A stretch of DNA of 64,000 nt from Chrysophaeum taylorii (lineage: Eukaryota > Sar > Pelagophyceae > Pelagomonadales > Pelagomonadaceae), in contig JAQMWT010000237.1 of the NCBI GenBank assembly GCA_029834535.1, forward strand, positions 36,724 through 100,723, in the 5' to 3' direction. A model generated the notes under the pieces. It saw only the letters and a program-made list of their open reading frames with translations. It was not told the origin of the DNA and did not search any database. Numbering within the stretch: the stretch's first letter is position 1; each line of letters opens with the position of its first letter. This document shows positions 1-61,488 of the stretch, piece by piece. Made by a program: the position numbers and the translations under genes.

Positions 1-67
1 CAATGGTCACTTCAGAACGCCGATAAATAGCTCGCTCTGTCGCATAATCCAAAATCGGACCCAAGAG

Positions 68-3769: not shown

Positions 3770-4177
3770 TGGAGAGATTTGACCCTCTCCGGGTACATGG
3801 TAGAGACTGCGTGCAGTCTTAGGCGTGTACAGACCATTCCGCTTGCCACATGCTACTACACAAGGTAGGGATTTGGGCCCTAACTCCTTAGGGACATTAG
3901 GTCCCATAGAAGCTTTACACTGACAACGAGGAACGAAGCTTCTGCTAATTAAGCAGAAAACCCCGTACCTGACGGTACGTACCTGACGGTACGCACCTGG
4001 AGGCCTACTCCATGTTGGAAAAGAGCTTCAGACTGGGTTCTTCATAGTCATAAAAATATAATTGCGGAAGGGTAAGGAAGGAAGGAGGGAAAGCCGTATT
4101 ACGGAGAGAAAACCCTCTTGTAGAGATAGGTGTGAAATGTTCCAGTGTCGCAAACAATAATAGTGTAGCTCTCTGGA
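3770..4177 (-). repeat. copia A 3' LTR
   Basis: About 408 bp, repeated at 23776-24169 and 53256-53661 with few differences. On the plus strand it begins TGGAGAGATTTGACC and ends near TAGCTCTCTGGA. Two short CCTGACGGTACG-type repeats lie near 3965-3995. The inner limit is uncertain by a few bases, because copies A and B share the adjoining internal sequence. Confidence 0.75.
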
Positions 4178-6421: not shown

Positions 6422-7875
6422 TTAACCATCTTGTTGAGCTATGGGTTGTTGTAAGCCGAGTAACGTGCGAAATCTGCTGAAGAGCGGAGCTCCAAAGGGT
6501 TTAGTAAATCCATCGGCGATATTTTGGGTACCGGAAACATGATGTAGACGTATACGACTGTACGTAGTCACGAATACGGAACCAGCGTGTGCTGATGGCT
6601 TTGGCCTTAGTCGCACTGTCGGAATTGTTGGAAAGATGAAAAGCAGGGGCAGAATCTCCCAGTATAGGACTGTTACGTATGAACGACATGTCCGATGGGA
6701 GGGGATTGTCGTGAGCATCATAGTCTAGTAGCAAGTCTTTCCCTGAAGATTAGCGGAGATAGAAGTGAGGATTTATAGCGAATGCCATTTCTGTTAACAA
6801 TTTGCGTAACCAGACCACATCATCGGCACACATATTAAGGGCGATAAGCTCACTCTCATGCGTAGGAGTAGCTGTAATAGGCTGCAACTTAGACTTCCAA
6901 GTAATGAGAGAACCAAACAAAAAGATAGCGTAGCCGGTTGTAGATTTGCGGTCTTGTTCATAAGAGGGTGCATTATCGGCATCTACGAACGCGACCAGCG
7001 GATCAAAATTACCTGAATTAACTTGTTCTTTAGTGTAATCCAGCATGGTGGCCATGTCAGTACGATTACCGATAAGAAGTCGAAGATGGTCCATTAGAGC
7101 GGAAGAACCAGAGTAGTACCAGAGGCGAAGATTATGCTTTTCGGGCTTGCGCAAGTAGCGGAGCGTCCCTGTTAGTACTTGAACATGTAGAAATGCTGGA
7201 TTATGCATTCCTCGAGAGCAACGACTAAGACTTTGTGATAGATCGGGGCGACAGGCCAATTGGACAAACGCGAGCTTGCCGAGTAGAGTAGAAAAGGTAT
7301 GAAGGATGAACTTGTCCATATCAGAAGATGGCTCTCCAGTTTTATACGTGGCTGATGGTGACATCGGTGTGGAAGTGGGACGTGGCTGCATTAAAATGGG
7401 GTACTCTTCGAACAATGCATCAAGTTTAGCCTGACAGTCCAGTGATATAGAGCCATCAGTTGTACGCGTTATGCGCATGCCTAGGAGAGTATGGACTTCA
7501 TCGAAGGTGTCGACTGAGTATTCCTTTTTCAGGGCTTGCTGGAACTCACGACGTAGAGTTTCCGAAGTGCAAGTAATGACGACGTCGTCTACTGAGAGCG
7601 TGCAAATTAGAAATGTAGCGTCAGCTTGGACTTTAGCGTAAATGCATGTGTCTGTTAGAATCGTGTATAGCCTAATGAATCAAAGAAGCCGTATATGGTT
7701 TGATTCCAAAGGGCAGGGCTCTGACGTAATCCATAGAGAGATTTAAGTGGCTTTGGGAGACGACGGCCTTGGTATTAGTATCTTCGGGATCGAGAAGGTA
7801 AATGCCTTGTGGCAGTTTGACATGGACATGAGAGTCGATGGGAGCTTGAACTAAAGCGTAAGGTACGTCGACATG
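6422..7875 (-). pseudogene. pol: copia A reverse transcriptase C-terminal half and RNase H
   Basis: From 7875 leftwards, frames broken near 7480-7680 and near 6730 encode the copia RT palm (LSVDDVVIT, the catalytic Asp pair, near 7580) and connection (LLGMRITRTTDGSISLDCQ). RNase H follows (AFVDADNAPSYEQDRKSTTGY, then THESELIALNMCADDVVWLRKLL). The end of the domain is NIADGFTKPFGAP, equivalent to the usual copia ADxFTKxL motif. The function is cDNA synthesis and removal of template RNA. Copia B has the same region at 55902-57287. Frameshifts make this copy inactive. Confidence 0.85.
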
Positions 7876-9833
7876 CTAGACGGGAAGTCGCAGATGAGCT
7901 GCTAGCGCCAGAACACAACGGATGCCAGTAAGCTGTGCCATAGGGCTGAATGTGTTGAACAAATCGGTGCCCAAGGAGGCTAAGAAGCCTCGTAGGACCA
8001 GGCGTGCTTTATGCTTAATGTACTGACCAGCAGCGTTGGTTTTTATACGTAGGACGAGGCGGGTGTCAATGGGCTTTGAGTTGACCATTGGCAGTGCTAG
8101 TTTAAAGCAGCCGAACTTAACAATATCAAAAATCTCTTTGGAGATGGCGGCGACATAAGCTTTGCGATCAGCGTCTGAGAGACCTTTGAGGCAGTTCATC
8201 TCGTATTCATCAATTTTGATATCGTTGGCTTGAATCTTGTATTCGTCCGAACCAACAGTGCTGGGGTCATGAGTCGTCGTCAGATGAGTAATTGCGTAAG
8301 AAGCGACATTATCGTGAGGATGAGCGTGATCGGGATCTTCGACGAGTTGAACAACTAGTAGAGGAGCATCACCAAGGTGAGTCTCAATGTAATGCGATTG
8401 CACGGTGATATAGTCTTCGATGGCGGAGAGGTGAGGCTCGGAGGCACCGTAAGAAGCGTCATTATGATCCAAAATGGAGTGGGGCGTGAACAAAGCATAA
8501 ACATATTGAGCGGGAGGAACTTGAAAGGCGTGAGCATGTTCAGAAATTAAATGAACGAGAGCTTGAGGAAGGTGAAAGTCTGCAAGGTTGACGTCGTCGC
8601 AGAAGTGAACGTGAGGAGCATCAGGCGATGGGTGGCTATGGCTCCTATGACACATAACTGAAGAGGACTGTGAAAGCGCTTGGTGCACACGGTGATGAAG
8701 GGATGATGTAAATTCCCCCTCTGGAGGTATAGCCGTCCAGTGGATGCCATGAGCAAGATGAAGGGAGTGGAGGGCGGGGTCGCAGAAAGTGATGTACTGC
8801 TTGGAGAGGTCATACTCGAAGTCGGCAAGCGTACCACCGGCTTGTTTGTAAGCGGCAACAGTAGGCGAGGCAATACGAGTAAGAACATCCTTGAGATTGG
8901 TTTTGCGACGAGGTTGAGGGTGATGAGGACCACGGGTGAGACGTAGGACATCCTGGGAATAGAGAGACCGACAAGATGGTAAAAGTGGCAAAGTGTTGGA
9001 GGACACTTCAGATGTAGGTGTGGTGGCGGAAGTAGCGGGTGCAGAAGCAGCTGGAGCACATGCGGGAACGGGAGAGGGAGCATGGAGATGAGAAGAAGGA
9101 GCCCCCCTCTCGTGATCAGTGTCGGTAGGCATAGCATTCCCCCTCTGCGTCGCATCATTGAGGGTGCTGTGAACAGAGAAGGGAATGTCGGGTGAAGGTG
9201 CTGGAGGTGGATGCTGTTCATAATCAGGAGGAGATTTAGACATAAGATGAGGAAAAGTCAGTTTAGAGGAAACACGGACTTGGCCATTTTCAGGATTAAG
9301 GACAACATCGGCTAAATGATTAACATGGGGTGTTATTAAAGGGTTTATAACATTAGCACCACATAAGTAGATGTAAGGACGACATCGAGGCTCATGTTTA
9401 TGAAATTCGTTAGGTTCCAAATGCAGATAACAAACAGAACCAAAAGGTTTGAGGTAGTCCTGTTGGGGAACATTACATTGGTCTAACAAAACTTGTTGGG
9501 GGCTTAGGACTTTATTATAAATACGTTCGAAGGGAACGTTAGGGAGGAGATTATACGATTGGATGGCATGTATAACAGCCCACGGGTAGTGTGGTGCCGG
9601 ATCTGTTAGGGGGTGACCTTTATAGGATACATTAAGCATATGCCGGAGTCGTGTAGACGCGGCAGTGGCTATGTGACCAACAGCGGCTTCTACTTCATGA
9701 TTAAAGACATGTAAGTAAGGGGGGAACGCGGACATATTAATACCATGTTCCACACGAAAGGGAGTTGTAACATGCTGAGATAAATAGGGTTTAAAGGAAT
9801 CACAATAAATTTGTTTTAGTTGTACATGAACAT
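7876..9833 (-). pseudogene. pol: copia A integrase core, long linker and RT N-terminus
   Basis: A 625-codon open stretch begins inside the integrase catalytic core (EHGINMSAFPPYLHVFNHEVEAAVG, which includes the catalytic Glu region). It continues through the integrase C-terminal segment (YLCGANVINPLITPHV, DVVLNPENGQVRVSSKLTF) and a Pro/Ser/His-rich linker of about 350 residues. It ends in the RT fingers (RLVLRIKTNAAGQYIKHKARLVLRGF, TFSPMAQLTGIRCVLALAA). Insertion of a short element at 9847 cuts the integrase upstream. The linker is unusually long, and diverged copia D (50319-51211) also has it. Confidence 0.85.
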
Positions 9834-9846
9834 AAGTAGAACAAAA

Positions 9847-10217
9847 CTAACTAACTAACTAACTTCAGACCTCTCCCGAGCATGGGAGCCAGGCCGGACC
9901 GACAGGAGCCAGTCCGGAATCACGGGCCTGTAGACGAGGAGCGCCGAAAGGTGGGTCGGCGGAGAGTGATCATCAAGCTTGTCGCCATGCGACGAGGAGA
10001 CCGCGATGTGACTGACAACCAACTCGTCGATAACCTTCCGTCTGCGCCCCCCGGCCATACCCCGTCCCACTGCGAACGTTCCGGCTGCCAACCGGCCCGC
10101 CCGAGAGGCGAATAGGTGCCAACCCACGCCGGGAGGGCGGATGCCCTCGCAAGGCTCAGGATTCATGAGGCACCGTCCTCCATCGCAACCATGCGGTCGG
10201 CGATCAGGGTAAGGGGA
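9847..10217 (-). mobile_element. short non-LTR retroelement inserted in copia A integrase
   Basis: 371 bp flanked by the 13-bp direct repeat AAGTAGAACAAAA (9834-9846 and 10218-10230). The empty site is visible in copia B near 59310-59330. Read on the minus strand it ends in a (GTTA)n tail. Its last 60 or so bases (CCTGGCTCCCATGCTCGGGAGAGGT) match the 3' end of the LINE at 46051-46975, so LINE machinery probably mobilised it. A GC-rich frame of about 128 codons runs through it, but nothing shows that it is translated. I see no convincing RNA polymerase III B box, so it may be a truncated LINE rather than a SINE. Confidence 0.85.
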
Positions 10218-11993
10218 AAGTAGAACAAAAATTACGGACAAACTCAGGGGCGTTACAAAATTCGCTGGAGTTAGTGCTACGACAAAAGTACACTAACAAA
10301 AATTTATAAATGGGACACTTAATAACAATGATATGTCGAAAGGATCCCCATTCTGAGAGAACGGGTACGTAACCACCGTCACATGCCGAGGCTTCACCAG
10401 GTTGAAAAATTTTTTCGAATGATGGTTGCTTGGTAAGGTGATGTGGATGCGGAAAGTGTTTTTTATGAATCGTACAATCCACACCGAACTTACGGTAGGG
10501 TACGTCAGATGGGTGGTGTCCAGGACTGGCAATAACCTGAACAGCTTTTATAGCTTGAGAATCACTAGAATGGTGGATGTTGTGAAAATTGGTAGCTCGT
10601 TGTTGCGCATCTCGAATGCGAGGGTGCCCTGCATGCTTTCTTATCGAAGGGCGCATGCTTCTCATGGAGCTGTCTTGGCGTTATAAGAGGGAATTTGTTT
10701 TTCTTTAGTAGGAGATGTATATCTGCGGATGAGTGTGTTAGAGAGGAAGAGATGAGCTACCGAATCGAGATGAAAGAGGGAAGGAAGTTCGTGGTTAGAA
10801 GCAAGATTATCACAACATGAGAGAGTTTTTATTGGAGATGTAGAACATTGTAATGGAACTCTGGTGTAATATTAAGGATGTATCTGTTGGGAATATATTT
10901 GTGAAGAAAGTCGACCTATAGTTTTTGGTTAGAGAGGCGTGATCAGGGTCAAACGATGGTGATAGCGTTAATTTACGCAAGTCATAGAACAAGCTGACAC
11001 AAATGTTTATAAATAGTATGATATGTTCCAGCCGGAATAGCATTAGCGATGTATGTCACAGCATAGGTCCGGGACAAAGACAAAGGAAATTGATTTGAGT
11101 TTGGTACGCTGTGAAGTTATTGGCGCGTGCCAATTCGCGAGTTGAGTAGTGTCGAATGCGATCGAGTTGTGGATCGTACACGAGCATATTAGCAAATCCA
11201 CGAATGTTAGGAGTAGGAGTGTATATAGAATGAACTTTGGCACCCATCTTCCTATCGCTTGATGTAACAAAGCCCAGGTATCTGCTTTGGGACAGATGCA
11301 TGTCACTTAAAGCAAACATTTTATCGATAAATTCGAGACGATTTTCCTGAGGGTAGAAGACAAAAGAATCGTGAAATACAGGAGAAGTATAGGGGGCCAG
11401 TGCTTGTACTAGACGACGCGTGTCTTGATTTTCATTATTATTATGGTATGCTTGGCAAAGCCAAAGAAAGCCAGTAACAGGTTCGAGAGAAGCAGTCTTA
11501 TCGATTCCGGCATCATGTGTTAGGAAGGTATAGGTTTCGCCAAAAGCATTTATATGTGCCTGGTATTTAGAAGAGCTTGCGAGGGCATCCGCCCTCCCGG
11601 CGTAGGTTGGCACCTATTCGCCTCCCGGGTGGGCCGGTTGGCAGCCGGAACGTTCGCAGTGGGACGGGGTATGGCCGGGGGGCGAAGACGGAAGGTTATC
11701 GACGAGTTGGTTGTCAGTCACATCGCGGTCTCCTCGTCGCATGGCGACAAGCTTGATGGTCACTCTCCGCCGACCGACCTTTCGGCACTCCTCGTCTACA
11801 GGCCCGTGATTCCGGACTGGCTCCTGTCGGTCCGGCCTGGCTCCCATGCTCGGGAGAGGTCTGAAGTTAGTTAGTTAGTTAGTTATTTAGAAGAGGAGTT
11901 AGAAGCTGTTATGTCTCCGCCTGTATGTCTTCTACCGGTGATGTACATGATGGAGGAAGTAGAGGATTTATTTAAGAATAACCTGTGAGATGG
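10218..11993 (-). pseudogene. pol: copia A post-MTase region and integrase zinc-binding domain
   Basis: Continuation of the MTase frame, closed by a TAA at 11994-11996 where copia B has CAA. It is cut again by the short element at 11576-11883 and several frameshifts. The conserved post-MTase segment (YQAHINAFGETYTFL, SRYLGFVTSSDRKMGAKVHSIY, ANNFTAYQ) has no domain I recognise. It is followed by an HHCC-like integrase zinc finger (FHNIHHSSDS, then VDCTIHKK) and the first catalytic Asp of the integrase core (ACDGGYVPV). In copia B the region is one continuous frame joined to the MTase C-terminus (59384-61033), and copia D also has it (48200-49500). Confidence 0.75.
11576..11883 (+). mobile_element. 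short non-LTR retroelement, second copy
   Basis: 308 bp flanked by the 12-bp direct repeat TATTTAGAAGAG (11564-11575 and 11884-11895). Copia B shows the uninterrupted site near 60646. It ends in GTTAGTTAGTTAGTTAG and is about 95% identical to the 3' part of the copy at 9847-10217, in the opposite orientation. It starts further 3', consistent with 5' truncation during target-primed reverse transcription. Confidence 0.85.
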
Positions 11994-13055
11994 TTAGTTA
12001 GATTCGATCGTTGTAATACGAAAGGACACAGGTAATGTGATAGATTTAGGGAATAAACGTCCCATAATATTATAGAGGAGCACAAAAGCCTTTAGTTCAA
12101 TAGGAGATCTTATGCAAGCAAGTGGTTTTCTTGAATTAGTCAAGAATCCCAGGCGAAAGTTAGAAATGCCCTCCATTTCATCTTGACTGGGATGTTCGAC
12201 TGTTTTGTTAGAGTGCAGACGAAGGAACAGCATAGTTAAGGTTTCAAGCTCAGTCACAGTTAAGCGCACGGATCCTGTACGACGAAAGATGTTGTAGGTT
12301 TTAGGTGTGGACACGAATGGTATGTTGGGAAAGACCTGCGTCCAAGGTTCGTCGACTATTAACTTGCGACTGATGGAATTAGCGTGGTCTGCAATGTCCA
12401 GAAAGGAAGTGACTCGTTTGTTAGGCCAGGAAAGCAGATCAAGACGGCCGGTGTTATATTTGCGTGCAACGAGGATCCATCTTTCTCTGGCTTGATAATC
12501 TCCACACAGATAGCATGGAAATCGGTCACATATATCCACCGTATAGTGCATCGTTGAGAAGATGAGATTAGCAACTCGTATATGATCTTCATACGATGCG
12601 GAGTGTGGTGGTGTCATTTCCATGAAAAGAACAAGCGGCTTTAAAAGCTCAAGTACACTTAGAGCACTTGGAAACAAGGAATCATCCATATCACGCTCGA
12701 AGGTGGAAATGGATCTCCCATTGATTATGTTGCGATTTGTGCATGGTGATGTCAATTCCACTATATCAGTGTAATATCGTGCACGTTCAGCGTCCGATGC
12801 TCGATGGAGATATGTCAGAAACTTGGGTAGGGATGGGAAAACTTCGATGGAACTACAGAAACGTCTTCGTAGCATGTGCGTGAGATTGTCGTCGCTCTCA
12901 ACAAGAACTTTAACGTTGATGTTGATTTGCAAGTCATTAGAAGCGCAAGCCAAGAATGCAGGAGTGGACATCCCAGAGCAAAGTAGAGTTACAGTAGGTG
13001 TTCGTGAGCTAGGAGACGTAGTTACTGTGTGAAGCAAACGTGTGGTAACCTTGCG
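11994..13055 (-). CDS. C5-cytosine DNA methyltransferase domain of copia A
   Basis: This domain would transfer a methyl group from S-adenosylmethionine to cytosine C5. C5-MTase motifs occur in family order: motif I VTLLCSGMSTPAF (about 12990), motif II Glu/Asp (VLVESDD), motif IV VELTSPC with the catalytic Cys at 12741-12743, motif VI LVLFMEMTP with the Glu at 12618-12620, and motif VIII GDYQARERW at 12480-12503. A short target-recognition stretch is followed by motif IX (SVRLTVTE) and a weak motif X (IMGRLFP). All catalytic residues are present. The frame is continuous with the protease ORF across one UGA (13056-13058), and the first in-frame ATG lies inside motif I, so readthrough is the likeliest route of expression. 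A TAA at 11994 (CAA in copia B) ends the frame. Nothing in the sequence says whether the enzyme targets element or host DNA. Confidence 0.85.
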   Translation of the reverse strand, partial: RKVTTRLLHTVTTSPSSRTPTVTLLCSGMSTPAFLACASNDLQININVKVLVESDDNLTHMLRRRFCSSIEVFPSLPKFLTYLHRASDAERARYYTDIVELTSPCTNRNIINGRSISTFERDMDDSLFPSALSVLELLKPLVLFMEMTPPHSASYEDHIRVANLIFSTMHYTVDICDRFPCYLCGDYQARERWILVARKYNTGRLDLLSWPNKRVTSFLDIADHANSISRKLIVDEPWTQVFPNIPFVSTPKTYNIFRRTGSVRLTVTELETLTMLFLRLHSNKTVEHPSQDEMEGISNFRLGFLTNSRKPLACIRSPIELKAFVLLYNIMGRLFPKSITLPVSFRITTIESN

Positions 13056-14927
13056 TCATACGGGAGGTGGGAAATGCTTGCGTATGTAAGGCAGCTGCGA
13101 ATGCATTGACTCCAAGATGGTTTTAAGCCATGGGACGTAAATTACGCGTTCCATGAGGGTGGAATATAGTTTAAGCATTTCGCGTTGTTCATTAAAAGCA
13201 CATAGTCTGAACTGTAGTGAGCGAAGTTCCATTTTACGCGCTTTTGCTTGTTGTAGCGAATAAATTGGTAGAGTAGGCAACAGGTTATTAAGTCTAAACA
13301 AAGTAATCTTGACATTATCATCAATTTTACTCTGGATAGATGATTGTCCTTTAAATTCAACTCCATAAAGATGTATACCAAGTTTATCTTCTCCCCATTG
13401 AGTCATGCTGATGATGTGCAGATCGGGATCGTTATGGTCGTTTTGCTTGGGTAGGAAAAGCGCAACGTCTAGCTTTACATATCCCACATTTGGATGCTTT
13501 GGGAGAGCGGGAATGACAGTCCTTATAATCATAGCATGTGTGATACTCTGCGTATCCGTAGCAGTCTGGATAGCAGGTGATAAGGACTCGGGTAGCTTTA
13601 CGATGTGGATAGGATCAGCATAACGTTTAAAGTTAATTACATGTTGAGAAGCACATGTGTCAGCATATCCTGGCGTAGTCATTAGCGGCAAATTGTACTC
13701 GTTGTACAGTTTAAGCATTGTTGCATAACAGGCATGTGTTGAGCTTTGACCAAACACGTACTGTGTCATGAAACTTTGCGTTTGTTCGGAAGGCACAACG
13801 ACGAGTGTAAAACCAGTGTTTAATTTTGGTAGCAACACAGGGGGATCTGTACCATCTTCATTATCTTCATTGGTTAAATTACTGGGGAGCTCAGAGTGCG
13901 AGGAAGTTTCCCGAGCTTGACGACGAACGATAGCATTCTGAGCTTCAGCATTTACGTGCTGCAATAGCGGCTGAGGGATGTTATCGATTTCATCATCTTT
14001 AATGGACAGAAAAGTGTGGAACATTTTCTCTGTATCAGCAGTCCCCCTCTGCTCCGCATCACTGGGGGACGCTTCAGGAGCAGATGTTTCAGCTTGATAC
14101 TTTTCTTCTGAAACATGAGATTCCTTATCGGCTTCTAAGAGGCTCATTATGGTATTGGACATAGTATCAACTCGAGATAAGTAGAGATGAACTTGGGTGG
14201 CTTCGTCAGGATCTAAGGACTGTGTCGAAGCTTGAGAAGCGGTTGTCCAGAGGGTGCTCAGTAAGCTTTTCATTTCCTCCTGTACCATTTTAGAGTCGGT
14301 AGAGGGGTTGGGATTCGCTTCCTGTAGTTTACCAAACAGATGGCGAAGACGATCAACTTGATAAGTAGCCCGGTCCATAAGAGACATATTAGAGCGTGCA
14401 TTGCGGTTAGAGGAGGGTGAGTAGACAGGACGATCGAAGCTGGTACCTTTGACGTTATAATTTGAAGGTGGACGATAGTACGACGTGTCACGAGGTAAAA
14501 TTGTCGATGCTTTATCTTTTGCATTACGAAGCTTACGAGCGTTGAAGCCAGACTGCCCAGCTACAGTAGCTAACAACGAGTAAGCATTGGTTAGAGAGTC
14601 GTGGGATTGATGAATAGTATCCATCAATAATACCTTAGGTGGCTTGGTCGCGGTAGTACCAGGGATGTAAGGGATCCAGGAAGCGGGTTTATCCAAGCGT
14701 CGGTTAGAGGAAAACTTTGTTTCATTATATATCTTTAACAAGAACTCCAATAACGGACGATCGTCGTTAGGATCAACTAGCTTTAACAATTCAGGATCGT
14801 GAATCGAGTTGTTCCCAGAGCGTGTCTCGTAGAGTTTACACCATTCCAATAAAGATTGAGAATAGCGCTCGTGATCCGAGGGATTAGCATATGGACGGTA
14901 GATCTCCTCGTGAGCTTTGAGAGTCAC
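13056..14927 (-). CDS. copia A ORF2: Gag C-terminal-like region and aspartic protease
   Basis: 623 codons, open and conserved in copia B (61489-63346). The first 380 residues are hydrophilic and Ser/Asn-rich with predicted helices and match no domain I recognise. The C-terminal part is protease-like: GYADTCASQHVINF at about residue 421 (catalytic Asp423, 13659-13661) aligns with the copia DSGASxH motif but has Cys for Gly. The frame overlaps the end of gag by 4 bases in the -1 frame and opens without a nearby ATG, so it probably depends on frameshifting or reinitiation. It ends in UGA followed by C, a context known to be leaky, with the methyltransferase frame directly beyond. Confidence 0.75.
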   Translation of the reverse strand: MTLKAHEEIYRPYANPSDHERYSQSLLEWCKLYETRSGNNSIHDPELLKLVDPNDDRPLLEFLLKIYNETKFSSNRRLDKPASWIPYIPGTTATKPPKVLLMDTIHQSHDSLTNAYSLLATVAGQSGFNARKLRNAKDKASTILPRDTSYYRPPSNYNVKGTSFDRPVYSPSSNRNARSNMSLMDRATYQVDRLRHLFGKLQEANPNPSTDSKMVQEEMKSLLSTLWTTASQASTQSLDPDEATQVHLYLSRVDTMSNTIMSLLEADKESHVSEEKYQAETSAPEASPSDAEQRGTADTEKMFHTFLSIKDDEIDNIPQPLLQHVNAEAQNAIVRRQARETSSHSELPSNLTNEDNEDGTDPPVLLPKLNTGFTLVVVPSEQTQSFMTQYVFGQSSTHACYATMLKLYNEYNLPLMTTPGYADTCASQHVINFKRYADPIHIVKLPESLSPAIQTATDTQSITHAMIIRTVIPALPKHPNVGYVKLDVALFLPKQNDHNDPDLHIISMTQWGEDKLGIHLYGVEFKGQSSIQSKIDDNVKITLFRLNNLLPTLPIYSLQQAKARKMELRSLQFRLCAFNEQREMLKLYSTLMERVIYVPWLKTILESMHSQLPYIRKHFPPPV

Positions 14928-15802
14928 TCGATTATGGAATCATTAAATTGGATTGATGCTTCATCATTATTTAATTGCTTTGCCTGAGATTGGAAAGCAA
15001 GGAGTTGTTCGACAAATACATGGGCATACCAATTAACATTTAAAGACATTCGATTAAACTGAGATTTGAGCTCAGTGACATCTGTACAAGACACTGTCTC
15101 ATAGTAATGGTGAGCTAAAAGCATTACTACACGTAGTTTATTAGGATGTGCAGTAAGTGCATATATCTTCTTTAATTGAGGCCACATAGCGAGTGCGGGT
15201 TTGTCCTGTGATTCCAGATTTAAAAATGTGTACAAGAAACCAGCATAAGTTTCGCAGTGTTTGATCCAGTCGGTATTAGAGAGACCTTTAAAGGATATGT
15301 TAGTTAGAGATGAATCATACACAATTGATTTAGGGAATCGGGTATCTAATAAAGCGAGGACACGTTTAACATCCTCATTTAATTCGGGACGAACGAGATT
15401 GTATGACTCTTGGTAGTAAAGTCGTTCGAGATTATTACGGACATCAACTGATAGTTGATGTGATGAGTTGACGTGCCAAGTTTTAAGATGATCAGGCAGG
15501 GCATCTTCATCAGGTAAGTTTAAATCGTTTACTTGTTCAGCTTTCCATTGAGCGAAGATGATATCAACTTCTTGTTCTAGAAGTTGGTTATACTCCGGAG
15601 CATTCCGGGTGTAAGCTTCATATGAATCGAAGCAGAATAACGCGTCCACGTATGGCCTTGTCATATGCCTGCGAAGCACCTCAATTTGTAAGCTCACCTT
15701 GGTTGAGTTGTCTTGGAAACGCAATCCTGCGTTAATTTTATCAACGAGGATTTGTTCTTGTTTGTAGATATCCGTAGTGGATATTGGTTTTTCTTTTGAC
15801 AT
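14924..15802 (-). CDS. gag: copia A gag (ORF1)
   Basis: 292 codons from ATG 15802 (MSKEKPISTTD). The protein is helical and charged and is the first ORF after the leader, the position of copia Gag. Support comes from copia B (63348-63985) and the diverged copia C fragment (24170-24544), which share TRKVSLQI/STKVSLQI followed by FDSYEAYTR. I see no CCHC zinc knuckle, which is usual in copia Gag. It ends SIIE with TGA, and ORF2 begins in the -1 frame within 4 bases. Confidence 0.75.
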   Translation of the reverse strand: MSKEKPISTTDIYKQEQILVDKINAGLRFQDNSTKVSLQIEVLRRHMTRPYVDALFCFDSYEAYTRNAPEYNQLLEQEVDIIFAQWKAEQVNDLNLPDEDALPDHLKTWHVNSSHQLSVDVRNNLERLYYQESYNLVRPELNEDVKRVLALLDTRFPKSIVYDSSLTNISFKGLSNTDWIKHCETYAGFLYTFLNLESQDKPALAMWPQLKKIYALTAHPNKLRVVMLLAHHYYETVSCTDVTELKSQFNRMSLNVNWYAHVFVEQLLAFQSQAKQLNNDEASIQFNDSIIE

Positions 15803-16233
15803 GGTTGTGACCTATTAAAGAATAGGTTATAGGATTGATAGACATATTCGACACATAAGAATGAAGGGTTTCTCGAGTGCGGGTTATATGTACAGTACGC
15901 TATTTTAAGCGCGGGCTTATTTACAAGACCAAACAAATCAACATGTTATTTAAAAACAAGATGACTTGAGACTGAAGAATGGATTAATTCTCGAGCAGAC
16001 AGTCTTTTGTTGGGGAATAGGAGGAAAAACCCGTACAAGTTTCCGCGGCTTGTGTAGGAAAAAATTTTAATTTTATTGGTTATGCGAGTGCATATGACCA
16101 GTGACGGACCCAACTCGGCCACAACCCAAATTAACTGGTGGGCGCATACCGTCACACAGCAAATATGTACAGTAGACCACCGCCAAACACATTGTCGCAT
16201 TGTACTCGTGATCAGGCGTAAATTGATCACTCC
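15803..16233 (-). other. copia A 5' leader, interrupted by G2
   Basis: Non-coding leader between gag and the point where G2 inserted. The leader resumes at 23721 and reaches the primer-binding site at 23756-23775. The base composition is A/T-rich. I see no other gene in it. Confidence 0.6.
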
Positions 16234-16564
16234 TGTGGCGGCAACTCCTGACCGCTAAGGCTTACCCCCCCCTCTCTCGAGGCTCGATACCCGTTCAACG
16301 GGGCACCTTTCCCGATCTTTTTAGTGACATCATACCTCTCTTTTGTGAGAAGCATTCTTGCTGTATTCTTGTAGTTTCCTTGCTATCATATACCATCTCT
16401 CCATATTGTTGAGAGGCTTGGTGAGCGTGAGCAAGGTGTGTGTGGCGAGCTTATCCGACCCCGCGTTCGTGTTTTCCTCGTTCGGTGAGGTCTAGGACGA
16501 GTCGGTGAGTACCCCCTTTGTCACCCGGGGGTCGGGAAGGTTTTTTTTTTTCTGTGCCGCCATA
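16234..16564 (+). repeat. G2 5' LTR
   Basis: 331 bp, matching 23388-23715. The ends are TGTGG and CCATA rather than the usual TG/CA, and are fixed by the perfect 5-bp target duplication outside them. A run of T (16541-16551) precedes the 3' end. Confidence 0.9.
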
Positions 16565-16994
16565 CGTGGTGGAGTACACGAGATCGTGCGACTACATCGG
16601 TCGCCGACGAGCGAGTGCTGCCGTACGTGTTGTATTACGTGGTCCGGATTTGTACGTGAGCCCTGATCAAGCACACGGAGTTCCATTGGACCGGTTTGCG
16701 TTGAGAATATACGCGAACGTTGTTTGTGTTCGTACGATCCGAGTGACGACGAACACGCGTGCGAGTTGGAAATCGCAGCGCATTCTCCCGGGAATTGATT
16801 TTGGTATAGCTGAACGGTGGAAGCTGTTTACCGAGTGGGATCGCTACCCACGGGCATTTTTGAATTGCCAGCGGATTGGACTTCCGCGAGTGCTGTTTTT
16901 ACAGCGACAGATAGCGTTGTTGGAATCAACGTGAATTACTTCGAGTGATCGGATCCGGACGTGTTTCGAATTCTTGATCGATATTTGATACAGT

Positions 16995-18725
16995 ATGGAG
17001 ATAAACGCAGACGTGCGCGAGGAAGAATCTCCTCCAGTTCTTCCCGCCGCCCCTGCGATAGGCCGCGCGGAAGGTGAATTAAGAGAGGCCGAGGCAGTCG
17101 ACGTTGCTGACGTGCCCCCTGATGTGCCTCCGGATACTGCCATTTTTTCGCCGTTGAGTCCAACGACTCCGGATCGTGGCGAGCGTGTTACTATTGAGCG
17201 CGGATCTGCAGCCCGAAGTCGACTTCGTGAAGACCTCGAGCGGAGACGTCGCGAAAATGAACGATTAGCTGAGCTTTTTGCTCGTGAAAGGGCTGAAGCG
17301 AAAGAGGAAGCGGCTCGACGAGAAGTTGATATGCTCAATGATGCATTACAGCAAGAGATTAAGACCTCGAAGACCCTACGCGAAGAGGCTGAACGATTTC
17401 GTCGTGAACGAGATGAATTGTTAGCCGAACGTGCGCGTCGGGAGAGTAGCCGCGAACGACCCGTGAGTCGACCCGAACCGGAATCGCCCGTGAGGCCGCC
17501 TGAACCGGAAAGGAACACTGAAACGGGGAATGAACCTCCGCCCCGAGTCGATACGGAGAATGAGGGTAGGGCGGACGTTGAGAATGAATGTACGAAAATT
17601 TTATGGGAATCATCGCGGGGAATATCGCAGACGGTTGCCAACGCCTTCGAAAAGGGCAACTTGAGCCGATCCCATCGACCCACTTCCAGTTTGAAGCCTG
17701 ATAACTTCAAACTCGTCATCGACGGCCGAGACCAACGGCAATTTAATTTGGATTCGGCGGCGATGATGCATACTTTAGCAGATGACCATTACTCGGTCGA
17801 GAAATTACGTTACTTACTACCTGTGCATCTACGGGACACCGTTGCACCAATTTTTGAGGAACACTTGCAGAAATACGAGGAGCTCTGCGATGAGCTACCA
17901 CACGGTCCGTCGTTTTACTTGAAATCAGATACTGACGATGAAGAGCATGGAGTCTCGGTTCGTCGTATCCGTCGTCTTAACAAGACGTATTGCGACAAGA
18001 TTTTGGATTATTTTAGATCGACTTGCCGACCTCCGCGCACGCAGCAGGAGCTGCTTGACAAGCTGCGGAAGGTCACCCAGGCTTCAGTTCCGAAGAAGTC
18101 TGGGGAGCGGCACGTTCAAACGTATTGTACCAGATTCCAATCTGAAGCCTTGGAGTTTTGTTCCGTGTCCAGCCGCACGATGGATGATGTCGATATCCTT
18201 GACCAGCTTATCAGTGGATTGACGTCCAAGGAGTTGAGGACCCGTGTGCGGACTATGAGGAGCGGACATCCTGATAGTTACGTGACTTTTAAGTCGATGG
18301 TAGCGCTTATTACGCGGCTCGAGAACGACTTGCGAAAGTTGATGGAGGAGGAGAAGGACCAAGGCCCACCTAATCCGAAATCGAATAAACCGCCGCGAGG
18401 GCGGGGAGGTCGAGCTATGGCCTCCGATCAACAAGCCAAGCAAGATGCGGATAAACCGTTTGGGAATACGGATCCGCTGATTTTACGAGATCCTTTTTTG
18501 TGGGGCAAGAGAACGTGCCCGCACTGTGGGTTCTTCTGGACCACCCATGATGAAGATGAACACGGAAGTCGCGTAGTTTGCAACCGCGATCCGGATCGTT
18601 ACTACTGTGCGATGTGGAAGCGAATTCGTAAGCAGAAGAAGCAGCCCATATCGCGGTCCGATTGGGCAAAGCGTCACGATGCATCTCATGCGAACGCCAC
18701 GCACGGATCGGACGGAGCCTTCTAA
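16995..18725 (+). CDS. gag: G2 gag
   Basis: 576 codons from ATG (MEINADVREEES). The acidic, Pro-rich N-terminus is followed by a strong Arg/Glu-rich coiled coil (about residues 75-155, ERRRRENERLAELFARERAE), a second acidic Pro-rich linker and a Retrotrans_gag-like helical region (about residues 235-430). A Cys/His cluster near the C-terminus (CPHCGFFWTTHDEDEH, then C and C) could be a zinc knuckle. It ends in TAA at 18723, and pol lies in the +1 frame. The long N-terminal coiled coil is unusual for gypsy Gag. Confidence 0.85.
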   Translation: MEINADVREEESPPVLPAAPAIGRAEGELREAEAVDVADVPPDVPPDTAIFSPLSPTTPDRGERVTIERGSAARSRLREDLERRRRENERLAELFARERAEAKEEAARREVDMLNDALQQEIKTSKTLREEAERFRRERDELLAERARRESSRERPVSRPEPESPVRPPEPERNTETGNEPPPRVDTENEGRADVENECTKILWESSRGISQTVANAFEKGNLSRSHRPTSSLKPDNFKLVIDGRDQRQFNLDSAAMMHTLADDHYSVEKLRYLLPVHLRDTVAPIFEEHLQKYEELCDELPHGPSFYLKSDTDDEEHGVSVRRIRRLNKTYCDKILDYFRSTCRPPRTQQELLDKLRKVTQASVPKKSGERHVQTYCTRFQSEALEFCSVSSRTMDDVDILDQLISGLTSKELRTRVRTMRSGHPDSYVTFKSMVALITRLENDLRKLMEEEKDQGPPNPKSNKPPRGRGGRAMASDQQAKQDADKPFGNTDPLILRDPFLWGKRTCPHCGFFWTTHDEDEHGSRVVCNRDPDRYYCAMWKRIRKQKKQPISRSDWAKRHDASHANATHGSDGAF

Positions 18726-20568
18726 TGAAATTCAAACGGCCCTCACCGATCTTGGAACCACAATGGCGACCATGGTGAGCGAGGTCAGAAGCATCAAGGA
18801 TACAACGTCGTTTTTTACACGACAGCGAGACGGACGATCACCTTCTAGACGATCGTCACGCCGACATCGAAGCCAGAGCCCTAATCGAAAAGCCCATACT
18901 GCTCAAGACAGCCCGAGTCCTTGCCGTCACCGGAGCTCAAGTCGCAATTCGCGCCGGCGCCGACGTCATCGACATTACGATGACGAGTACGACGACGGCA
19001 GATATCAGGATAGTTCGGGACATTCAAGCGCATCTTTCGCGTTCCAATCTTTATGCGACGCGCCGCCAATGTCGGGGGTTGTCTTTTACCCGACGGCGCG
19101 CCCTGCCCGAGTCTCCGATGATGTTGCCGATGTCGCTGTGACGAGCAGCCATCGTTTGCAACAGGAGCAACATACCACCAACGCTCGGATCGTTCGGTGG
19201 CCTTCTACATCGTATGTGGAAGCAATGTCAGATGCTACTTGGGATTCTCCGCACTACTGGGAAGACTCAGATTCGGAGACTGACGAACCCATGCCGCAGG
19301 TTCCAGTGTTCCCCCATTCGTCAATGTGCATGTCTTGCAGGGCAGTTCACGATGATGACGTTAGACCTTTCGAGTTGACGTCGGGGACGACGTCTTCTTT
19401 TCCTACGGGGCCCCCCGAGACCGTTTTAGCCGTTTTAGCCGATGTTCTAGCCGATACCGCTTTAGTCGCAGCAGAGCAGACCACAGCGGCGCCGATGGAG
19501 GAGAAGTTGACGGGAATGTCCGATTTGATGGACGAGAAACGACGATTACCAGAAGTTCCTATGCTTCCGCTTCCAACTGATGCGCCGGGGACGGCTCATG
19601 TTTTTTCTGCTGCCCCCCCCCGACAATCAAAAGTGGACGTTCCGCCGGATCCTGAACCTGAACAGGAGCCGAAAGTAAGGAGCGAGCCGAATGTGCGCGT
19701 CGAAGGTGAAAAGATCAATAAGAGCCACCCTGAGGTGAGGTTCAAATACGAAGAAAAGTTCGATGTGCCATGGAAGGATGCACCGCGCGATGCGGACGGT
19801 GTATCGTTACCGCAGATTCCCGAGCACGTCAAGGACAATGATGCGATGAAAGTCGTAATTCCGACGAAGGAAGAAGTTGAGAAGGTTGTTCGAGATCTAG
19901 GAATTCCCGACAACCCGCATCTGGATGATGATGCGAAGATGATGTTGAGCCATTGCGTGCAATACGCGTGGGCTTTCTTTGATCCGATTATGAGACCCGT
20001 GGACTCGCCACCGGTTTCTCTACGCTTTAAAGACGCAGACCCACGACCGATCAAGATGACGCCTTATAGGTTGACGCCAGCAAAGCTCGAGTGTCTCAGA
20101 AAGCAGATCACTGAGTGGTGTCGCGATGGAGTCATCCGACCGGCGAACTCTCCGTGGGGATTTCCTGTACTGATGCTGCCTAAGAAGGGAGCCGAGGCCG
20201 GGACGTCGAATGCTTTTCGTGCTGCCGTTGACTTGCGTCAGCTCAATGATCAGCTGGTCAATGACAGTTGGCCGAATATTCGGCAAGATGATGCTTTGGC
20301 TTTTCTTGCCATGCGCCGTTGGCGGACGTGCATTGATATTCGATGGGGTTATCATAACTTACGTTTGGACGCCGCTGCTCAGGACGCTGTTACGATGGTT
20401 AGTCCACTTGGAGCCCATAGTTTCTTGCGCTTGCCTCTAGGAGTAAAAACAGCAGGAGCTCTCTTTTGTAAGCAGATGGCTAGCGATTTGTCCACATGGA
20501 TGTATAAGGACTTGGTCGCGTTTGTCGACGATATTATGATGGGATCGGATGAATGCTGTGCCATTTAG
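18607..20568 (+). pseudogene. pol: G2 pol, N-terminal part through RT palm
   Basis: Frame +1 to gag. Homology to pol begins after the gag stop. An Arg/Ser-rich stretch (RRSSRRHRSQSPNRK) and an acidic linker precede the RT: MRPVDSPPVSLRFKD, DGVIRPANSPWGFPVLMLPKKG, AAVDLRQLN, and the catalytic FVDD at 20521-20532. No DSG/DTG-type protease motif is visible between gag and RT, and no methyltransferase. After DDIMMG the frame is lost at a short deletion relative to G1 and closes at 20568. Confidence 0.85.
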
Positions 20569-21488
20569 CGCAGCGAGGATATAGTGGACGAACTTCCAAG
20601 TTCCACCTCCTCAAAGATGAAATCGAGTTTTTGGGACATATTTCGACTCCGGAAGGCTTGAAGCCGAATCCCAAGACGTTAGAAGCGTTGCAGCAGATGC
20701 CGATTCCCGGTACGTTGCCCAATACGTCCCCGAAGATCCAGATTCGATCTTTCATTGGTATGAGCAACTATTGCCGCCGATATGTGGAGAATTATTCGAA
20801 GATTGTGGAGCCGCTTCGGCGATTGTGTCTTGAAGGCGTTAAGTTTGAGTGGACGCCTGAGTGCCAAAAGGCATGGGACACGATCATCGAAGCTTTGGTG
20901 GATTCTCGTGGAGTTTATCATCCTGACTACGATCTTCCTTTTCAGATCCGCTCGGATGCTTCCAAGGATGGTCTGGGTGCGTATCTTTTTCAGCTCGTGG
21001 AAATCAAGGACGAAACCGGCAAGGTGACACGAGAGGAACGAGTAATTGAGTATTGGAGCCGAGCTGTGCCGAAAGAGATGCGGAACTATGAGCCTCGCCG
21101 GCTAGAGCTCCTGGCAGTTATTCTTTCTGTTGAGCATTTCCGCTCTTATATTGAAGGTCACAAGACGATCCTTGAAACAGATCATCGCAACTTGACGTTC
21201 TTACGAAAGGCGATGCACTCGTCTGGGCAGTTGGCTCGATGGGCGATGCGGCTCGCCAATTTTGATCCTGGATTGGGTTACAAGCCAGGGAAGTCGCCGG
21301 GAATGAGCATCCCTGACTGTCTCTCTCGCAATCCTATAGATCATGTCATCGAGACGGACGAGTTTGGTGAACCCTTGAACCACGCGTATCTACTGTGCCA
21401 AGAACTTCCTCGTTCTGTTGATGAAGGAGTACCTTTACATGGGTGCCATGTCATTCTGTCGTTTGTTACGACTGAGTTACCTGTGTAG
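20553..21488 (+). pseudogene. pol: G2 RT thumb/connection and RNase H
   Basis: Begins QRGYSGRTSKFHLLKDEIEF (RT thumb), then the connection (RSFIGMSNYCRRYVENYSK) and RNase H (IRSDASKDGLGAYLFQ, EYWSRAVPKEMRNYEPRRLELLA, ETDHRNLTFLRK). This RNase H has the D-E-D residues of gypsy elements. A TAG at 21486-21488 (GAG at the matching place in G2') separates it from integrase in the same frame. Confidence 0.88.
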
Positions 21489-21515
21489 GAAGAAGAAGAG
21501 GATCTCGATGATCCG

Positions 21516-23357
21516 GTGCATTTGGTCACGTCTCATGCTACGAGACAACGTCAGAAGCAACGTCTGCAGACCCAACATAGTATTTTCCGTGATGCCGATG
21601 ATTACCAAGAGTACATCGACAAGATCCCGGATAATTTAACTTTGGAAGAGATAGCCAAAGAGCAGATCACTGATGCTACTTGCGAGGACATTCGTTATCG
21701 CATGGCTCTGGGCCATTCTCCTCGTCGGTACGGGGCCAATTATCGCTATCAAGTGGTGAAAGGAGTTCTCTACCGTGCCGCACCCGACTTGCACCCGATG
21801 ATAGTCGCACCCCGAACTTTACGGACGCGCATCATCCGATTGTACCATGACACACCTCTCAATGGTGGTCATATGGGTCGTCAAAGTACAGTGCAGTCGA
21901 TACTTGAACGTTTTTGGTGGCCCCGTATGTCTAATGAGGTGGGTGCTTACATTGCTGGTTGCATAGTGTGCAAGAAAGCTCGTACGCCTGAACCAAAGAG
22001 AGCAGGTCTGCTTCAGCAACCGGTGTATGATGGTGATTGTGTCGTCCTTTGTATGGATTTGTTTGGACCTTTGCCCAGTGCTGGTCCCGAGACATATCTC
22101 ATCGTTTTTTTTTATCCATTTTCTCATTTCTTGATTCTCGACGTACTACACCATAAGACTGCTGAGTCAATCCTCGAGTCTTTTGTCGCGAATATATTAC
22201 TCAAAGGTTATCTACCTCAGAGGATTCGTACCGACAATGGGAAAGAGTTCGTCAACAAGTTGATGGAAGAGTTTTGTCATCTTTTCAATGTTCGGTATAG
22301 TACCACGATTCCGTATCATGCTCAGGCTAATCCTGCGGAAAGGGTCAACCGCTTTATCAAGGCTTTCCTCCGTGCGTGCCTTCAAAACCGCAAGATCACG
22401 GAATGGCCCGAATTCGCGGAGTACATTGCTTTCTGTTATAATCGTAAATTTATTCCGGGGACTCAGATCTCACCTTTCATGCTTCGTCTTAACCGGCAGC
22501 CTTTATTGCCAACCGATTACACGATCATGGATCTTGATGTCCGCCGCCTGCCGAAAACTCGCTCCGATGTTGTGGCAGAGACTCGCGAGAGGCTGAAGTT
22601 CTATACCGCTACGGTGAACGAAGCTCGTGAGAAGGCTCTTCGTAAACAACGTCTCGCCTATAATGCGGACCATGTTGATGTGGAGTATGAAGAAGGTTCA
22701 CATGTTCTGCTCTACATCCCTTTTCTTCAGAACAAGCTTCGACCGGAATGGCGCGGTCCATTCGTTATTTTGGAACGCTTGTCCCCGGTCACTTACAGGA
22801 GTGAGTCTCTTGATTATCCCCCCGAACGCCGCTGTGTTCATGTTAGTCAGATTACCCCTGTGATGGTTTCTCCAGTGGTCGATCGAGCTGTGCCCAAGCC
22901 CAAGGAGACCTTTCGGGATGATTACAAGCATGGTATGTTCGTTATCTTTCGGATTCCGGATAATAAACGGTCCGATTGGCGAAAGAAGATTTATGTCGCT
23001 GAAGTTTATGAACCCTATGATTTTGTGAATGATCGAGTCGCTCTGCATTTCTATGCTGATCTCGGTCCCCATGACAAGGTTTCTTATTACAAGCCTACTT
23101 CACATCTCTCTACTCGCAAGCTTAAGCCGGAATACAAGGACGTGGACGGTCGCAGTTTCACCGACAAGACCAAGGTCAACAACAGTACCACTCCTTGTGT
23201 CACCGACTTCGCCCCGCATGAGATCGATGTGTTGATTCCTAAGTTCACTTTGCGTGGTGGACGCGTTCCTGAACCTGTCGTTGAACGTGCCTACAAGAAG
23301 ATTCGTTCTCGAGATGCTCATTCAGCCAAGGCTCGTGCTTCTCGCCGGACTCGCTGA
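21516..23357 (+). CDS. int: G2 integrase with extended C-terminal region
   Basis: 613 codons, open to a natural TGA. The HHCC zinc domain (LYHDTPLNGGHMGRQST, then CIVCKKA) is followed by the DDE core (CMDLFGPLP, IRTDNGKEF, NPAERVNRFIKAF) and an SH3-like GPY-type segment (LRPEWRGPFVILE). About 200 further residues, basic at the end (KKIRSRDAHSAKARASRR), have no clear chromodomain. It would insert cDNA into the genome. It is the best-preserved pol segment of G2, and G2' carries the same region at 44255-46050. Confidence 0.88.
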   Translation: MHLVTSHATRQRQKQRLQTQHSIFRDADDYQEYIDKIPDNLTLEEIAKEQITDATCEDIRYRMALGHSPRRYGANYRYQVVKGVLYRAAPDLHPMIVAPRTLRTRIIRLYHDTPLNGGHMGRQSTVQSILERFWWPRMSNEVGAYIAGCIVCKKARTPEPKRAGLLQQPVYDGDCVVLCMDLFGPLPSAGPETYLIVFFYPFSHFLILDVLHHKTAESILESFVANILLKGYLPQRIRTDNGKEFVNKLMEEFCHLFNVRYSTTIPYHAQANPAERVNRFIKAFLRACLQNRKITEWPEFAEYIAFCYNRKFIPGTQISPFMLRLNRQPLLPTDYTIMDLDVRRLPKTRSDVVAETRERLKFYTATVNEAREKALRKQRLAYNADHVDVEYEEGSHVLLYIPFLQNKLRPEWRGPFVILERLSPVTYRSESLDYPPERRCVHVSQITPVMVSPVVDRAVPKPKETFRDDYKHGMFVIFRIPDNKRSDWRKKIYVAEVYEPYDFVNDRVALHFYADLGPHDKVSYYKPTSHLSTRKLKPEYKDVDGRSFTDKTKVNNSTTPCVTDFAPHEIDVLIPKFTLRGGRVPEPVVERAYKKIRSRDAHSAKARASRRTR

Positions 23358-23387
23358 GGGCAGCTCGTGTTCTCACCAGGGGAGTCC

Positions 23388-23715
23388 TGTGGCGGCAACT
23401 CCTGACCGCTAAGGCTTACCCCCCCTCTCTCGAGGCTTGATACCCGTTCAACGGGACACCTTTCCCGATCTTTTTAGTGACATCATACCTCTCTTTTGTG
23501 AGAAGCATTCTTGCTGTATTCTTGTAGTTTCCTTGCTATCATATACCATCTCTCCATCTTGTTGAGAGGCTTGGTGAGCGTGAGCAAGGTGTGTGGCGAG
23601 CATACCCGACCCCGAGTCCGTGTTTTCCTCGTTCAGTGAGGTCTAGGACGAGTCGGTGAGTACCCCCTTTGTCACCCGGGGGTCGGGAAGGTTTTTTTTT
23701 TTCTGTGCCGCCATA
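23388..23715 (+). repeat. G2 3' LTR
   Basis: 328 bp, a near copy of 16234-16564. It is preceded by a short purine-rich AGGGGAGTCC stretch that could serve as the polypurine tract and followed by the target duplication ACTCC. Confidence 0.9.
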
Positions 23716-23755: not shown

Positions 23756-23775
23756 GCGCATCTGGGCCCATAACC
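23756..23775 (-). other. copia A primer-binding site for an initiator tRNA-Met half molecule
   Basis: Directly next to the LTR end at 23776, the plus strand reads CTGGGCCCATAACC. This is the anticodon-arm sequence of eukaryotic initiator tRNA-Met, so the minus-strand RNA would pair with the 3' end of a 5' half-tRNA. Drosophila copia and yeast Ty5 are known to prime in this way. The same 14 bases occur at 24965-24978 beside the copia C LTR. Confidence 0.8.
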
Positions 23776-24169
23776 TGGAGAGATTTGACCCTCTCCGGGT
23801 ACATGGTAGAGACTGCGTGCAGTCTTAGGCGTGTACAGACCATTCCGCTTGTCACATGCTACTACACAACGTAGGGATTTAAGCCCTAACTCCTTAAGGA
23901 CATTAGGTCCCATATAAGCGTTTACACTGACAACGAGGAACGAAGCCTCTGTTAATTAAACAGAAAACCCCGTACCTGACGGTACGCACCTGGAGGCCTA
24001 CTCCATGTTGGAAAAGAGCTTCAGACTGGGTTCTTCATAGTCATGAATAAGTAATTGCGGAAGGGTAAGGAAGGAAGGAGGGAAAGCCGTATTACGGAGA
24101 GAAAACCCTCTTGTAGAGATAGGTGTGAAATGTTCCAGTGTCGCACACATAATAGTGTAGCTCTCTGGA
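23776..24169 (-). repeat. copia A 5' LTR
   Basis: About 394 bp, matching 3770-4177 and 53256-53661. It adjoins the primer-binding site on its low side. On its high side it abuts copia C gag at 24170 with no visible target duplication. Confidence 0.75.
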
Positions 24170-41220: not shown

Positions 41221-41265
41221 ATCCCCACCGATGTCCCTGGCACCGCTTGCTTCACCTTCTCTTCG

Positions 41266-47990: not shown

Positions 47991-47997
47991 TTCATTC

Positions 47998-61033: not shown

Positions 61034-61488
61034 GGATCCTGTGGTGTCATTTCCATGAAAAGAACGAGCGGCTTTAAGAGCTCAAGTACACTTATAGCAC
61101 TTGGAAACAAGGAATCATCCATATCACGCTCGAAGGTGGAAATGGATCTCCCATTGATTATGTTGCGATTTGTGCATGGTGATGTCAATTCCACGATATC
61201 GGTGTAATATCGAGCACGTTCAACGTCCGATGCTCGATGGAAATATGTCAGAAACTTAGGTAGGGATGGAAAAACTTCGATGGAATTACCAAAACGTCTT
61301 CGTAGCATGTGCGTGATATTGTCATCGCTCTCAACAAGAACTTTAACGTTGATGTTGATTTGCAAGTCATTAGAAGCGCAAGCCAAGAATACAGGAGTGG
61401 ACATCCCAGAGCAAAGGTGAGTTACAGTAGGTGTTCGTGAGCTAGGAGACGAAGTTACTGTGTGAAGCAATCGTGTGGTAACCTTGCG
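61024..61488 (-). pseudogene. copia B C5-MTase N-terminal half, internally deleted
   Basis: Carries motif I (LCSGMSTPVF), motif II, motif IV (VELTSPC) and motif VI (LFMEMTP), then breaks. About 330 bp equivalent to copia A 12277-12607, encoding motif VIII QARER and the target-recognition stretch, is missing. The join puts the remainder out of frame. It is separated from ORF2 by the same UGA as in copia A (61489-61491). Confidence 0.85.

Follow-up and report, generated by a model that had tools for sequence, protein, structure and literature searches.

Cytosine methylation is a means by which hosts silence retrotransposons, and a long terminal repeat (LTR) element with a cytosine methyltransferase (MTase) of its own is therefore a paradox. 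C5-cytosine MTases (DNMTs) carried by LINE, DIRS and Gypsy elements have been described (de Mendoza et al., 2018; PMC5890265), and an earlier note on the DNA analyzed here named dinoflagellates and a charophyte alga as sources of such enzymes; for Symbiodinium, the same paper states that its Copia elements are devoid of a DNMT domain. Activity has a precedent in yeast, where two SymbioDIRS DNMTs methylate CG (PMC5890265). Sarre et al. (2025; PMC12344493) place DNMT3 in 'LTR Copia and DIRS', citing de Mendoza et al. (2018), where Gypsy is described. The window analyzed here, a 64-kb stretch of Chrysophaeum taylorii DNA (contig JAQMWT010000237.1), contains a Ty1/copia element, element A, in whose polyprotein a domain behind the protease is almost certainly a C5-cytosine MTase. 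Apart from the one sentence in the 2025 paper, copia is a new carrier of a retroelement DNMT as far as the accessible literature goes: the available parts of PMC9998398, PMC12477816 and PMC3145265 contain no C5-MTase in a copia polyprotein, and no other report of a copia-borne C5-MTase was recognized in a literature whose subscription papers and preprints lay outside the scope, which is weak evidence of absence. To the whole explanation, namely that a captured C5-MTase became the first domain after the protease, is expressed by readthrough of a TGA codon and methylates the element's complementary DNA (cDNA) before integration, we assign a probability of roughly 60%.

Comparison with described systems reveals both shared and distinct features. 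KnitGypsy-Dnmt3 of Klebsormidium nitens is, like element A, an LTR element with a C5-MTase in its Pol polyprotein, and purifying selection acts on both enzymes (Ka/Ks < 0.2 for KnitGypsy-Dnmt3; a ratio of nonsynonymous to synonymous substitution rates, dN/dS, of about 0.08 for the copia MTase), but KnitGypsy-Dnmt3 is a Ty3/gypsy element with a Dnmt3, whereas the carrier here is Ty1/copia, in a host with a fucoxanthin-type antenna protein; the gypsy elements of the present genome are a closer architectural parallel to it than copia. Similarly, SymbioDIRS-Dnmt3 and SymbioLINE-Dnmt of dinoflagellates are described in the same text as retroelement-borne C5-MTases of high copy number, although their carriers are DIRS and LINE elements rather than copia. 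Sola1 of the brown alga Ectocarpus (PMC12477816) is likewise a mobile element with its own predicted DNA MTase, but it is a DNA transposon with ParB, and its enzyme is a predicted 4mC/6mA (N4-cytosine or N6-adenine) MTase, not C5. With M.HhaI, M.HaeIII, DNMT1, DNMT2 and DNMT5, the copia domain shares the predicted Rossmann core, the Cys loop, the Glu and QxRxR, in this order, and it differs from them in motif I (LLCSGMSTPAF) and motif VI (MEM).

The MTase frame of element A (P0001, Table 1) was delimited exactly by the earlier note, which left its strand unstated and counted 347 residues where there are 353. No Met precedes codon 29, and the plus strand of the same interval is riddled with stops. 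All motifs named by the earlier note were seen in the frame and in C5-MTase order, motif IX (RLTVTE) following those that contribute the catalytic Cys (IV, TSPC), Glu (VI) and Arg (VIII, QARER). The forms FxGxGG in motif I and GN in motif X are typical of C5-MTases; here, the divergent motif I falls on the CSGxGG stretch of known C5-MTases in the hhalign alignment, and no clear motif X was seen in the domain, the C-terminal half of whose full-length model is of low confidence.

Homology searches and structure prediction both bear on the identity of the domain. Among 5.8 billion sequences, P0001 matched the MMETSP protein P0002 (E 1.3e-72) and P0003 (E 9.5e-17). A search against PF00145, which had been suggested as a check, succeeded in part: P0003 scored 41.8 bits and P0002 20.2 bits (cut-off 22), and P0001 alone had no match in the Pfam scan, so that its link to the family is indirect and runs through P0003. 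In a mixed profile, A1, composed of the family of element A (family 1), P0003 and a second copia family (family 2), six of the nine rows match PF00145 at E 0.1 or better, and against the PDB this profile retrieved C5-MTases only (42 of 42 matches at E up to 1). The family-1 profile had no MTase among its 11 PDB matches; in a single hhalign comparison with known C5-MTases it reached E 9.8e-5 and a probability of 58%, with PC, E and QxRER in register. Searches for further relatives with A1 recovered only P0002 and P0003, the long frame of copy L029 found no further sequence relatives, and none of the viral contigs searched with A1 and with the host DNMT2 was confirmed.

The structural comparison had been set beforehand as the test that could overturn the proposal. 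An AlphaFold model of the core (residues 16-215; predicted local distance difference test, pLDDT, 66.9; predicted template modeling score, pTM, 0.64) has a predicted Rossmann fold of the S-adenosylmethionine (SAM) type, with motif IV after strand 4 and Glu146 in strand 5. The 50 Foldseek matches listed are all C5-MTases (best E 1.3e-7), the first being a C5-carboxymethyltransferase, and C5-MTases make up 46 of the 50 matches listed by VIA (Z to 13.0). Sequence identity in the structure alignments listed is 10-19%. The top structural matches are the DNA enzymes DNMT1, ZMET2 and HaeIII, and DNMT2 chains are also listed; DNMT1 ranked highest for the core model and DNMT3 chains for an earlier full-length model. 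Chance resemblance of an unrelated Rossmann-like domain would account for the failure of single-sequence Pfam and PDB searches to reveal an MTase, as well as for the poor full-length model (pLDDT 46.8), which yielded nothing in Foldseek at E 0.001 and hit dehydrogenases too, but the homology to P0002 and P0003, the profile comparisons and the matches of the core model make such a coincidence highly improbable. Together with the copia-type reverse transcriptase (RT; RVT_2) downstream, the core, the Cys loop and the C5-MTases at the top of the structure search bear out the earlier reading of a C5-MTase in a Ty1/copia polyprotein.

The predicted enzyme is probably also catalytically active. A role without catalysis, such as nucleic-acid binding in the particle or spacing of the polyprotein, would suit the unusual motifs I and VI and the changes at Pro104 (kept in 19 of 20 aligned domains) or Glu146 in single domains. 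Such a role seems improbable given the constancy of C105, R190 and R192 in all 20 domains and of P104, C105, E146 and R192 in nine MTases, the most distant of which is 15% identical to P0001.

In addition, the domain is abundant and conserved within the genome. It occurs in at least 115 places in 70.8 Mb (697 contigs), a lower bound comprising the scored places out of 1130 first-look candidates and affected by two contig pairs, C25/C521 and C10/C297, that seem near-duplicates; 81 of the 115 have no in-frame stop. The median dN/dS (Nei-Gojobori) was 0.084 for the 91 pairs formed by 14 close copies; comparisons with three older copies gave 0.072 (42 pairs), and those with copies L040 and L042 gave 0.086 and 0.089 (18 pairs each). 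By domain, near and far pairs gave 0.106 and 0.082 for the MTase, 0.165 and 0.155 for the following stretch, 0.107 and 0.057 for integrase (IN), 0.158 and 0.061 for RT, and 0.373 and 0.087 for gag-protease, in 13 elements or fewer, with non-independent pairs and far pairs near saturation. The MTase is thus as constrained as the essential enzymes IN and RT.

On the minus strand, element A reads LTR, primer site, leader, gag, protease, TGA, MTase, IN, RT, 3' open reading frame (ORF), LTR (Table 1). The position of the MTase between protease and IN, as the earlier note had it, agrees with the order protease-IN-RT: the frame with ADTCAS, which we take to be the protease motif and which has no Pfam match, lies ahead of the MTase, and IN and RVT_2 lie behind it. 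The primer binding site resembles the half-tRNA-iMet primer site of copia. RVT_2 scored 36.7 bits in the window copy, 111.8 in L029 and 146 in L039 (cut-off 31.6). Copy L029 has an open frame of 1464 residues from the MTase through to the start of RT, in the order MTase, rve (16.4 bits, cut-off 32.6), SH3 (22.7 bits, cut-off 27) and RVT_2, its integrase calls being below the cut-offs. Across the genome, at least 10 of 59 MTase places are followed on the same strand by RVT_2, at a distance of 3.2-7.2 kb, a lower bound that used 33 of the best 150 RVT_2 places; a count of 19 of 73 is biased by 14 places added after RT matches had been seen, and 10 of 59 is its unbiased part. The span 3770-24169, less a nested gypsy element of 7.5 kb and two inserts of about 0.3 kb, leaves about 12 kb, as previously estimated, and the LTR, leader and gag occur without the gypsy insert in three other copies (L033, L034 and L039). 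Copy A is decayed, with broken frames and a TAA right behind the MTase, whose own frame is intact, and no target-site duplication was seen at it by eye. In a second window copy, copia B, motif VIII is lost because residues 150-259 are missing. The ORF that follows the family-1 RT was also found at L029:936-2558 and L038:777-2522 (541-582 residues across the three copies), and no Pfam family exceeded its cut-off in the two copies scanned (window and L029).

Table 1. Coordinates of features in the 64-kb window (position 1 is its first letter)
Feature	Position	Strand	Remarks
C5-cytosine MTase domain P0001	11994..13055	-	353 residues and TAA; opens the pol frame
Motif I region VTLLCSGMSTPAF, residues 22-34	12954..12992	-	Unusual form
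Motif IV TSPC, catalytic Cys105	12741..12752	-	Cys105 in 20/20 aligned domains; HhaI PC motif in register (mixed profile)
Motif VI Glu146 (MEM)	12618..12620	-	19/20 aligned domains; HhaI ENV in register (mixed profile)
Motif VIII QARER, residues 188-192	12480..12494	-	R190 and R192 in 20/20 aligned domains
Motif IX RLTVTE, residues 264-269	12249..12266	-	Sequence motif
3' LTR of element A	3770..4177	-	92.7% to 23776-24169
5' LTR of element A	23776..24169	-	Paired with 3770-4177
Primer binding site GGTTATGGGCCCAG	23762..23775	-	Directly after 5' LTR
gag ORF, 5' part	14924..15811	-	Frame broken relative to next ORF in copy A
gag-protease ORF, 3' part	13056..14939	-	627 residues; ADTCAS at 13647-13664
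Conserved in-frame TGA, border of gag-protease and MTase-pol	13056..13058	-	50/59 copies
IN end (SH3_retrovirus) and RT start (RVT_2)	7876..9846	-	PF25597 24.2 bits (cut-off 27); PF07727 36.7 bits (cut-off 31.6)
Remainder of RT (RVT_2), separate ORF	6750..7679	-	PF07727 28.9 bits (cut-off 31.6)
3' ORF, 569 residues	4641..6350	-	Two other copies 64-80% identical; without a Pfam family above cut-off
Nested gypsy element in leader of A	16231..23715	+	L048 family, without its MTase
Insert of about 0.3 kb in A, first copy	9845..10153		Absent from B
Insert of about 0.3 kb in A, second copy	11576..11884		Opposite orientation to first
Copia B MTase remnant	60761..61488	-	Residues 1-149 and 260-353 left; 150-259 deleted
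C5-MTase of gypsy element D	38320..39330	+	Inside pol ORF 37153-40386; PF00145 27.4 bits for ORF (cut-off 22)

The border between gag-protease and MTase suggests how the enzyme is expressed. Of 20 distinct family-1 copies, 19 close gag-protease with a TGA followed by C, immediately past which coding resumes in the same frame with the MTase; the exception, L043, is truncated there. On contigs up to C342, 59 copies have a complete start, and 50 of these show the TGA pattern at the expected site with at most one mismatch, whereas the other nine may have more mismatches; the whole genome holds 383 matches at two mismatches or fewer versus 81 for a reversed control. Among six copies, the earliest ATG in this frame lies at codon 29, within motif I, in four and at codon 61 in two, so that an AUG start would cut into motif I or cut it off. 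With a conserved in-frame TGA at the end of gag-protease and an MTase at the very start of the following frame, readthrough is the likeliest route, and we consider it reasonably probable. Expression by a spliced subgenomic RNA, re-initiation or a non-AUG start would be easier to reconcile with the folds tried 75-190 nucleotides downstream of the TGA, which are not unusually stable, and with the sister family (L047), which lacks such a stop and has gag and protease in different overlapping frames. The identical frame and stop, the immediate resumption of coding and the lack of an AUG ahead of motif I nevertheless render these routes rather unlikely. Stops inside the MTase point the same way (TGA in 15 and TAA in 18 of 115 places), and as TGA is about as uncommon there as TAA, nothing suggests that it is a sense codon here.

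Synonymous variation is low at MTase codons 41-60 (window positions about 12876-12935, minus strand), at 0.12 and 0.26, against 0.26 to 0.62 in the remaining ten-codon bins as far as codon 350 (15 non-independent pairs). A small hairpin is common to the copies at these codons, with ordinary folding energies (z -0.2 to -1.05), and the dip may mark either an RNA signal that acts in cis or a conversion tract. Two MTases per element were also considered as the norm and rejected, the upstream frames of element A, L034, L039 and L046 being protease without MTase. A second MTase, 49% identical to P0001, does lie upstream of the TGA at L037:2079-3974 (plus strand), fused to the end of gag-protease; since the four other translated upstream frames are without an MTase, L037 is regarded as a chimeric copy.

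We propose that ribosomes would occasionally pass the TGA, so that a minority of Gag-protease chains would extend into MTase-IN-RT, and that the protease would then free the MTase within the virus-like particle. As it would be made as part of a Gag-protease-MTase-IN-RT chain, the MTase would enter the particle together with RT and come into contact with the cDNA, whose cytosines it would methylate ahead of integration; the methylated new copies may then resemble host DNA or gain shielding from nucleases or deaminases. The analysis itself shows the predicted fold, the catalytic residues, the position, the selection, the copy number and the conserved TGA; the expression route and the function proposed beyond these are inferred. 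The earlier note had similarly suggested that the element may alter silencing by methylating either its own DNA or that of the host.

DNA is, by a small measure, the favored target in our prediction. Between eight copies, C/T differences were not clearly in excess at CpG specifically (CpG 0.103, CpT 0.109, CpC 0.081, CpA 0.078), and among 16 trinucleotide contexts CCT ranked first, CCG, ACG and GCG second, third and fifth, and TCG 13th. Copies A and B have observed/expected CpG ratios of 0.96 and 0.95, respectively, against 1.26-1.46 at host-gene loci, which indicates some depletion relative to genes (nested gypsy, 1.21; other window DNA, 1.04-1.05), and a lasting CpG effect of methylation is not clear. 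DNMT2 methylates tRNA, and a working C5-MTase that acts on RNA, either the genomic RNA of the element or its tRNA primer, would be compatible with the lack of clear CpG decay, with the DNMT2 chains among the listed structure matches and with the likeness of the primer site to the anticodon arm of initiator tRNA. RNA methylation has also been raised for the SymbioLINE DNMTs (de Mendoza et al., 2018; PMC5890265). The best structure matches are nevertheless DNA enzymes, though a fold is silent on substrate, and the same role would have to be assumed for gypsy elements, whose MTase is a different one, which makes an RNA target unlikely. As the genome is small, with hundreds of copies and some long open frames, the target of the MTase (element cDNA, host DNA or RNA) is testable.

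MTases are not confined to one copia family in this genome. In family 2 (L047), protease, MTase, IN and RT share a single open frame of 1952 residues, in which PF00145 (32.1 bits) and RVT_2 (133.2 bits) exceed their cut-offs and rve (17.2 bits) does not; the family has 137 genome matches from 126 scored candidates. A Ty3/gypsy element of the window, element D (33743-43171, plus strand; LTRs 33743-34074 and 42840-43171, 97.9% alike), carries an MTase between its protease region and RT, with RVT_1 in the same ORF and RNase H in the next; the PF00145 stretch shown spans profile positions 269-321. There are 127 matches from 119 scored candidates. The stretches FAGAGG, SPPC, SRTRL, RPLTLQ and LGSMVPP in element D are motif-like. 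A second MTase-bearing gypsy family, L048, scores 22.2 bits, barely above the PF00145 cut-off of 22, and its MTase is 39% identical to that of element D.

In a tree of 17 rows, none of them a Dnmt3, the copia and MMETSP MTases fall on one side (98/98) and the gypsy MTases elsewhere, and a single origin of copia and gypsy MTases is not rejected (approximately unbiased test, p-AU 0.39). The copia and gypsy profiles show no mutual similarity in hhalign (E 0.42 and 0.7), and each recognizes known C5-MTases (the gypsy profile over 78 columns only). Two copia families that share one MTase clade, and gypsy MTases that look unrelated to it, suggest repeated selection for the trait. We tentatively raise, as a less probable view, a convergent arming in which copia and gypsy elements separately took up C5-MTases at the same spot, immediately behind the protease, each kind then expanding to more than 100 places. 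If this were true, a particle-borne cytosine MTase would be a general replication advantage for LTR elements in this host, for example by marking cDNA as self before integration.

The host itself is photosynthetic, with 84 light-harvesting complex matches in the genome; one antenna protein is closest to fucoxanthin-chlorophyll proteins (7vd6, E 2.8e-76), and another is less telling. A fucoxanthin alga is therefore the likely host. A DNMT2 (1g55, E 3.9e-39) and a DNMT5 (7r76, E 3e-143) are present. A dinoflagellate or perkinsid host was considered and rejected: a dinoflagellate spliced-leader pattern had 0 matches in the genome assembly, although the assembly may lack those genes.

In the remainder of the window, Rfam and tRNA scans of the 64 kb returned nothing. 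A piece of a host gene with an adaptin N-terminal domain (PF01602, 286 bits) lies between the elements at 31261-32805 (minus strand). A remnant of a further copia family at 47978-48208 (plus strand) is a C-terminal MTase piece, 53% to the upstream MTase of L037, and 3' of it the stretch 48323-50290 (plus strand), without a Pfam match, resembles by eye the part behind the MTase and the integrase part. The gypsy element nested in A, whose MTase is deleted, is a natural MTase-free variant for comparison. In addition, window positions 1-3459 belong to a further D-family gypsy element (94% to 34065-37525), and a gypsy MTase match (C237:34919-35929) lies just beyond the window start.
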